Source: Marinitoga hydrogenitolerans DSM 16785 (GTDB taxonomy: Bacteria > Thermotogota > Thermotogae > Petrotogales > Petrotogaceae). From it: a DNA stretch of 38,179 nt. The translations under genes and the position numbers were made by a program. Under the pieces are notes generated by a model, which was not told where the DNA came from, made no database searches, and was given only the letters and a program-made list of their open reading frames with translations. Numbering within the stretch: position 1 is the stretch's first letter; each line of letters begins with the position of its first letter. This document shows, in pieces, positions 1 to 1,460 of this stretch. The DNA lies in the NCBI RefSeq assembly GCF_900129175.1, contig NZ_FQUI01000019.1, positions 1-38,179 of the forward strand, given 5' to 3'.

Positions 1-62
1 ACACTTTCCATTACTCTTAAATACTTTTTTCCTTTCACCTTTGATATTTTAACGAACATCAT
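1..62 (-). CDS. Partial transposase N-terminus, IS1634/IS4-like
   Basis: This is the first 20 or so codons of a minus-strand gene that runs off the left edge. Reading from 62 downward gives MMFVKISKVKGKKYLRVMES. The pattern MF(V/I)-basic-KGKKYL-(x)-ES is typical of the start of IS1634-type DDE transposases, which cut and paste their own element. The ribosome binding site AAAGGAG lies 5 bases before the ATG at 62 and 8 bases before a second ATG at 59; either may be used. A promoter and an inverted repeat lie just upstream. The family call rests on a short N-terminus only, so it is moderate. Another IS4-group transposase is possible. Confidence 0.6.
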   Translation of the reverse strand, partial: MMFVKISKVKGKKYLRVMES

Positions 63-70
63 GCCATCTC

Positions 71-107
71 CTTTTAGTGGTTTTCATATATATTATACCA
101 CTAAAAG
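71..107. repeat. 11-bp inverted repeat around IS promoter and RBS
   Basis: CTTTTAGTGGT (71-81) is the exact reverse complement of ACCACTAAAAG (97-107), with a 15-base spacer. In the transposase mRNA direction, the downstream arm overlaps the AAAGGAG ribosome binding site. The upstream arm lies before the expected transcription start. Only transcripts entering from outside the element would carry both arms and hide the ribosome binding site. Confidence 0.75.
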
Positions 108-120
108 TTAGTAAAATCAA
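92..120 (-). promoter_or_regulatory. Transposase promoter (TTGATT-17-TATAAT)
   Basis: On the minus strand the -35 box TTGATT (120-115) and the -10 box TATAAT (97-92) are separated by exactly 17 bases. Transcription should start near 85, which leaves a leader of about 23 bases carrying the AAAGGAG ribosome binding site. The -10 box begins inside the left arm and runs into the loop of an 11-bp inverted repeat (71-107), so mRNA from this promoter would lack one arm. Confidence 0.7.
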
Positions 121-142
121 TAGTTATATGCAAAAATATCAT

Positions 143-165
143 AAAAAGTTAGCCACACACTTTTT
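143..165. other. Small hairpin upstream of the IS gene, IS end nearby
   Basis: AAAAAGT (143-149) can pair with ACTTTTT (159-165) around a 9-base loop. It lies between the transposase promoter and the kbl terminator, where the end of the insertion sequence must fall. It could be part of the IS terminal repeat or a weak terminator. The exact IS boundary and target duplication cannot be seen because the other end is outside the window. Nothing else is recognised between 121 and 250. Confidence 0.25.
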
Positions 166-250
166 CGACTGACCTAGATTTACACACCTCAAATACGCAT
201 TTTACCGTCCAATTTTTTCATTTTTCCTTAAATTGCTGTCAAACTCGGGA

Positions 251-276
251 AAAGGCTGGGAATTATCCCAGCCTTT
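251..276 (-). terminator. Terminator of the tdh-kbl operon
   Basis: A perfect 11-bp stem (AAAGGCTGGGA 251-261 with TCCCAGCCTTT 266-276) closes a 4-base loop. The stem reaches the last base of the kbl stop codon. The T run on the minus strand is short (TTTT). It is symmetrical enough to act in both directions and could also stop transcription leaving the IS region. Confidence 0.75.
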
Positions 277-1460
277 TATTTGATAATATTTAATTCTTTA
301 CCAATTTTTTCGAATTTTTCAACAGCAAAATCAAGATCTTCTTTTGTATGTGCGGCACTTATCATCACTCTTATTCTTGCCAAACCTTTTGGAACTGTTG
401 GGAATCCAATTGATTGGGCGAAAATACCTTCTTCAAATAATTTTAAACTAAATTCTTTAGCAACTTTAGCATCATATAACATTACAGGAGTTATTGGAGT
501 TTCACTATGCCATGTGTCAAAGCCTAAAGCGTTAAGTTTTTCTTTGAAATATTTAGCATTATCCCATAGTTTTTCAACGACATTTCCACTTTCAACAAGT
601 ATTCTTACTGCCTCTAATGCAGCACCAGCTTCGGCAGGAGATAAGGAACTACTAAATAAAAATGGTCGGGCTTTTTGTTTTAAATAATCAATTAATTCTT
701 TTTTTCCTGCAACAAAACCACCAACAACACCAAAAGCTTTTGATAATGTACCAACTTCAATATCCACGTGTCCATGTAAATGGAAATGATCGACAATTCC
801 TCTGCCACTGTCTCCTAATACTCCTTCGCCGTGTGCATCATCCACCATTATTATAGCATTATATTTTTCTGCAACTTCAATTATTTCTGGCAATGGAGCT
901 AAATCCCCATCCATGCTAAATACGCCGTCTGTTATAATTAATAATCTTCTTGCGCCATTGTCTTTGGCTTCTTTGATTTTTTCTTCTAAATCTTTAACAT
1001 CTTTATGTTTCCATACATATTTTTTTGCTTTTGATAATCTTACACCATCAATGATACTTGCATGGTTTAATTCATCTGACAATATAGCATCTTCAGCAGT
1101 TGTTATAGCTGGAATAACAGCTTGATTAGCATTAAAACCTGATTGAACAACTAATGTAGCTTCTGTTTTTTTGAATTCTGCAAGTTCCTTTTCTAATTGT
1201 TGATGAATATTCATAGTTCCAGCAATAGTTCTTACTGCACCAGGTCCAACCCCATATTTTTCTATAGCCTTAATAGCAGCTTTTTTTAATCTTTCATAAT
1301 TAGCAAAACCTAAATAGTTATTAGAACAAAGATTTAATACTTTTTTTCCATCAACTTCAAACCATGCACCTTGAGCTCCATCTAATGTTCTAATAGTAAC
1401 AAAAAGACCATTTTCTTTTAGTTGATTCATTTCAGCACTTAATTGTTCATAAAAATTCAT
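276..1460 (-). CDS. kbl: Glycine C-acetyltransferase (2-amino-3-ketobutyrate CoA ligase)
   Basis: This PLP enzyme of the alpha-oxoamine synthase family splits 2-amino-3-oxobutyrate with CoA into glycine and acetyl-CoA, the second step of threonine breakdown. The 394 residues match the family length. Visible landmarks are LCSNNYLGF (44-52), NHAS with H133, the cofactor-binding [10 protein letters not shown] (207-216) and the PLP lysine K241 in GTLSKAFG. BioF (8-amino-7-oxononanoate synthase) is a close relative. The gene lies 10 bases downstream of threonine dehydrogenase, which makes KBL much more likely. GGGGTGA precedes the ATG by 4 bases. The operon ends in a strong hairpin that overlaps the stop codon. 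Confidence 0.92.

Follow-up and report, generated by a model that had tools for sequence, protein, structure and literature searches.

A probable read-through insulator at the transposase start of an IS1634-family insertion sequence in Marinitoga hydrogenitolerans

The window analysed here, a stretch of 38,179 nucleotides from Marinitoga hydrogenitolerans DSM 16785, is the end of contig C19 in a 2.31-Mb genome of 87 contigs, and its first 249 bp are the left part of an insertion sequence whose terminus, CCCGAGTTTGACAGC, lies at position 249 and whose interior runs past the contig end. The contig breaks off about 20 codons into the transposase gene, the repetitive element having interrupted the assembly; the same happens in every copy of the element in this genome, so that the body of the transposase is missing. 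The N-terminus, as read in the copy on contig C4, is 81% identical over 26 residues to P0001, a 534-residue transposase of M. lauensis that scores 377.8 bits against the NCBIfam IS1634 model NF033559 (cut-off 100). The window itself holds only this N-terminus, and it is through the M. lauensis relative that the element is placed among those with an IS1634-type DDE transposase, in agreement with the original prediction. We refer to the window's kind of element as A-type. The ends of the element are CCCGAGTTTGACAGC and TGTCAAAGTCAGG in this genome and CCTG..TTTGACAG / TGTCAAACTCAGG in M. lauensis, where the left ends, CCTG[CC/AG]TTTGACAGC, are homologous to that of the window. We note that the M. 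lauensis transposase gene is frameshifted in several copies (L055, L058-L061), which may reflect either long-read errors or decay, and that the transposase of genome G004 (L062 805-2436) differs from P0001 in its first ~70 residues and in the promoter region and is nearly identical in the remainder; to judge by this alignment, the G004 element looks recombinant.

Table 1. Positions of the features at the left end of the insertion sequence and in the adjoining DNA of the window.
Feature	Position	Strand	Basis or remark
Left end of IS1634-family insertion sequence	1..249	-	Boundary common to contigs C43, C4, C66 and the window
Transposase, first ~20 codons	1..62	-	ATG at 62-60 or 59-57
Shine-Dalgarno (SD) sequence AAAGGAGA	67..74	-	Duplex with anti-SD -8.7
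Hairpin arm 2 ACCACTAAAAG	71..81	-	Overlaps the SD
Transcription start, predicted	85..86	-	From promoter geometry only, 6-7 nt past the -10 box
-10 box TATAAT	92..97	-	Promoter scan; relatives show the same placement
Hairpin arm 1 CTTTTAGTGGT	97..107	-	Lies in the promoter spacer and takes in the first T of the -10 box; upstream of the predicted start
-35 box TTGATT	115..120	-	Promoter scan; 17-nt spacer to the -10 box
Subterminal motif GTGTGTGGCTAACTTTT	144..160	-	M. lauensis copies have it again, in direct orientation, past the stop codon and close to the right end
Terminator-like hairpin of neighbouring gene (ORF 276-1460)	250..277	-	By eye; not called by terminator scan
72-bp direct repeat adjoining the element	250..321	.	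Recurs beyond the right end on contig C75

The transposase gene is preceded by a promoter that matches the consensus at 10 of 12 positions and by a strong SD sequence, and both are touched by an inverted repeat whose arms, 107-97 and 81-71 on the minus strand, are perfectly complementary over 11 bp, exactly as had been predicted. The placement of the arms was likewise described correctly, in that arm 2 lies on the SD and the first T of TATAAT falls inside arm 1; on the minus strand arm 2 is followed by GAGA, TGGC and then ATGATG (62-57). One arm thus stands upstream of the element's own predicted transcription start and the other on the translation signals. From this anatomy we infer both the position of the start and the block to translation: messages made from the element's own promoter would lack arm 1 and be translated, while in transcripts entering from flanking genes both arms would be present and their folding would conceal the SD. 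Insertion beside a strong host promoter would then not lead to an excess of transposase. We consider it very probable that the repeat serves as an insulator of this kind against read-through.

Folding of the two RNAs is consistent with such a role. The read-through RNA folds to -17.7 kcal/mol with the SD in the stem (shuffles -9.6 +/- 2.65, z -3.05, with 3 of 200 as good), and the RNA from position 86 on folds to -6.1 kcal/mol (z +0.35) and lacks the stem. The predicted cost of opening the SD, by which we replaced a looser hairpin score (based on the leader paired with some 70 nt of upstream sequence) that proved noisy and separated the groups only partly, amounts to 7.6 kcal/mol for read-through RNA and to 1.2 kcal/mol for own-promoter RNA, and the ribosome site is therefore predicted to be open in the element's own message. 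Complementarity of this sort could arise by chance, as a T-rich promoter and a purine-rich SD readily pair in a genome rich in A+T; among 80 strong-SD host genes of Marinitoga, one shows an equally large difference in SD cost, and for three of the Petrotogaceae hairpins the difference relative to host genes is only modest. In 150 dinucleotide shuffles of the upstream sequence, however, a cost of 7.6 was never reached (p=0.007, the floor of 150 shuffles), and because of this value and because only that one host gene is as extreme, chance is an extremely unlikely explanation; the small p values of relatives with unrelated arms and the conservation of the repeat in many copies, both presented below, also speak against it.

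It is also conceivable that the true start lies further upstream, in which case the hairpin would act on the message of the element itself, as an RNA thermometer, an attenuator or a general translational damper. The start is indeed a predicted one, and the stem of this thermophile's element loses stability as the temperature rises: in a heat model at 60-65 C the SD cost falls to 4.0-3.3 kcal/mol in read-through RNA and to 0.4-0.3 kcal/mol in own RNA, with the hairpin remaining favourable. We nevertheless regard an action on the own message as very unlikely, given a good promoter with 17-nt spacing that is positioned such that its RNA lacks arm 1, the same promoter placement in relatives, and the absence of a terminator-like U-tract after the stem. 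The possibility that the repeat is an intrinsic terminator or attenuator was rejected on this last ground, together with the fact that the terminator scan called none.

If the repeat insulates the transposase gene from read-through, its pairing should be recognizable in related elements, and non-conservation between copies had been named as a result that would tell against the idea. The repeat is intact in all four copies seen in this genome (the window, C43, C4 and C66), and in M. lauensis both arms are intact in 29 of 30 A-type copies and in 12 of 12 B-type copies. The A-type arms of M. lauensis, CCTTTTGGTGGT / ACCACTGAAAGG in about 30 copies, differ from those of the window in two of the 11 pairs, both changed from A-U to G-U, and have gained one outer C-G pair. 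A sister subfamily, found in M. lauensis, in this genome and in six further Petrotogaceae genomes (G004, G008, G012, G017, G018 and G020), has arms of wholly different sequence (CTTGATTTCATAAT type with ATTATGAAATCAAG type) in the same geometry, one lying over the -35 box and spacer and the other against the SD. Over a 19-pair structure in 11 distinct sequences that are related to each other, 94.3% of the cells are paired, compared with 42-54% after sliding by 1-3 columns. The covariation score of the arms was matched by 5 of 500 shuffles, but the three pairs changed on both sides hardly exceed the shuffle mean of 2.8. The evidence from these alignments that RNA pairing has been kept in the sister subfamily is good but not overwhelming, since the aligned sequences are few and close relatives of each other, with few independent double changes.

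These departures also bear on whether the repeat might be a DNA operator, with a dimeric protein, either the transposase or a host repressor, bound to two half-sites across the promoter and repressing transcription. The arms flank the -10 box, which is a frequent location of repressor sites; yet the two changed positions in M. lauensis lose DNA symmetry and still pair as G-U in RNA, and in a manual count 40 of the 52 cells of the sister subfamily that depart from Watson-Crick pairing are G-U, so that RNA pairing fits better than a DNA palindrome. Two further observations speak against an operator: the arm sequences are completely replaced between subfamilies with close transposases, and in every case arm 2 extends to the SD. 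We think this alternative very unlikely.

The comparison was extended to 62 start regions of IS1634-family transposase genes, taken from many lineages. Where both a leader and a usable promoter were present, the SD accessibility test was significant (p<0.05) for both A-type elements, for all ten B-type elements tested and for five relatives from other lineages (G045, G140, G040, G057 and G126). The hairpins of G045 (arms CCTCGTTATATATTA/TAATATATAACGAGG), of G140 (in which ACTTGACA, the -35 box itself, stands against TGTCAAGT), of G040/G057 and of G126 were observed to be unrelated in sequence and to occupy the same place. The accessibility test was not significant at 0.05 for G317, G117, G225, G205b, G323, G145 and a Lactobacillus plasmid element, although G225 shows TTTCATCGTTA/TAACGATGAAA by eye. 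Mapped on the transposase tree, the set of elements with a significant result requires five changes or more, and the layout therefore either arose several times or is old with repeated replacement of its sequence. Searches of the phyla around G142, G140 and G148 gave one element each, few genomes of those phyla being compared, and a scan of viral contigs gave one M. lauensis-like copy only.

A different arrangement was seen in a survey of 47 elements outside the Petrotogaceae types, with start regions among L170-L182 and L184-L225. In 23 of the 47 the best sigma-70-like promoter has a -10 box whose last base lies 5-9 nt ahead of the start codon, the distance being exactly 6 nt in 16 of them; shuffles gave means of 3.1 and 0.5 and maxima of 7 and 3, respectively. 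An SD of -5 kcal/mol or better is found in none of the 23 elements with a close -10 box, versus 12 of the 24 others. Promoter position and SD strength thus predict leaderless messages for about half of the other IS1634 transposase genes surveyed. The start codon of a leaderless message serves little purpose when it is embedded in a longer RNA, and translation would therefore be confined to RNA from the element's own promoter; the leaderless layout is perhaps another solution to the same read-through problem. A broader rule, which we hold with about even confidence, is that throughout the IS1634 family only own-promoter RNA is translatable, by way of either a leaderless message or an SD-masking hairpin that spans the promoter, each having arisen repeatedly and Marinitoga representing the hairpin. 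An ATG at 87-85 of the window, moreover, lies where the A-type message is predicted to begin; the matching ATG in M. lauensis (L094 about 2971) is in frame, ten codons before the start served by the SD. It could be the relic of a leaderless start.

A small number of elements from enteric bacteria are known to be insulated against read-through. In an IS10 copy folded here, CACATCTTGTC pairs with the transposase start region, and IS10 (IS4 family, Tn10) resembles the Marinitoga element in having an outer arm outside the own-promoter message and an inner arm over the transposase start; it differs in belonging to another family and in that its inner arm covers the start codon rather than the SD, and no antisense RNA was seen for the Marinitoga element. 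Its function in protection against read-through was reportedly described by Davis, Simons and Kleckner in 1985. A copy of IS50 (Tn5), also of another family, was found on examination to carry a short inverted repeat near its transposase start, CCATGT/ACATGG, as the Marinitoga element does. The translation of IS50 is protected against read-through RNA, and this element also yields an inhibitor protein from a second start. IS200 has an antisense RNA, and the stem at its ribosome binding site lies inside its own message. The ribosome binding site of IS200 is occluded by a stem-loop, as is proposed here, and unlike the Marinitoga element IS200 has a further upstream stem that terminates transcription (PMC3196728). 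With arms kept between copies and unrelated arms at the same place in relatives, the comparison bears out the IS10/IS50-type logic proposed originally, and we consider this interpretation, as far as comparative sequence can carry it, well supported.

No earlier description of hairpin or leaderless control in the IS1634 family was found in the open-access papers searched, and a word search of the paper that defines the family (PMC2266710) gave no hits for translation, promoters or secondary structure. The hairpin would accordingly be a known type of mechanism that is new to this family. Its occurrence in a distant family, with several unrelated sequences in the same position, suggests that insertion sequences in general need to protect their transposase from promoters nearby, and the link to leaderless starts provides a simple and testable rule for the IS1634 family as a whole.

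The DNA next to the element has features of its own. The 72-bp repeat that adjoins the left end is found again at 96-167 of contig C75 (L006), beside the right end ATTGTCAAAGTCAGG, and is, judged from these two positions, a long target-site duplication. In M. lauensis the repeats flanking the copies are likewise long and variable, from 28 to 433 bp. IS1634 and IS1549 have been described with such duplications, which are uncommon among insertion sequences and had by then no proposed mechanism (PMC2266710). The terminator-like hairpin of the neighbouring gene abuts the end of the element inside the duplicated target; it was duplicated along with it, stands directly before the insertion sequence and would itself lower read-through at this site. 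Terminator-like hairpins adjoin the window copy and one other (L002). Targeting of terminators was considered and rejected, since the M. lauensis sites follow no such rule and the terminator beside the window copy is part of the 72-bp duplication.

Lastly, a subterminal motif (GTGTGTGGCTAA in A-type elements, TGTAGTGACAC / TGTAATGACAC in B-type) is present upstream of the promoter and again, in direct orientation, after the stop codon (L094). Many IS1634 elements have similar GTAGTGnCAC motifs on the upstream side of their promoters. The motif may be a binding site of the transposase.
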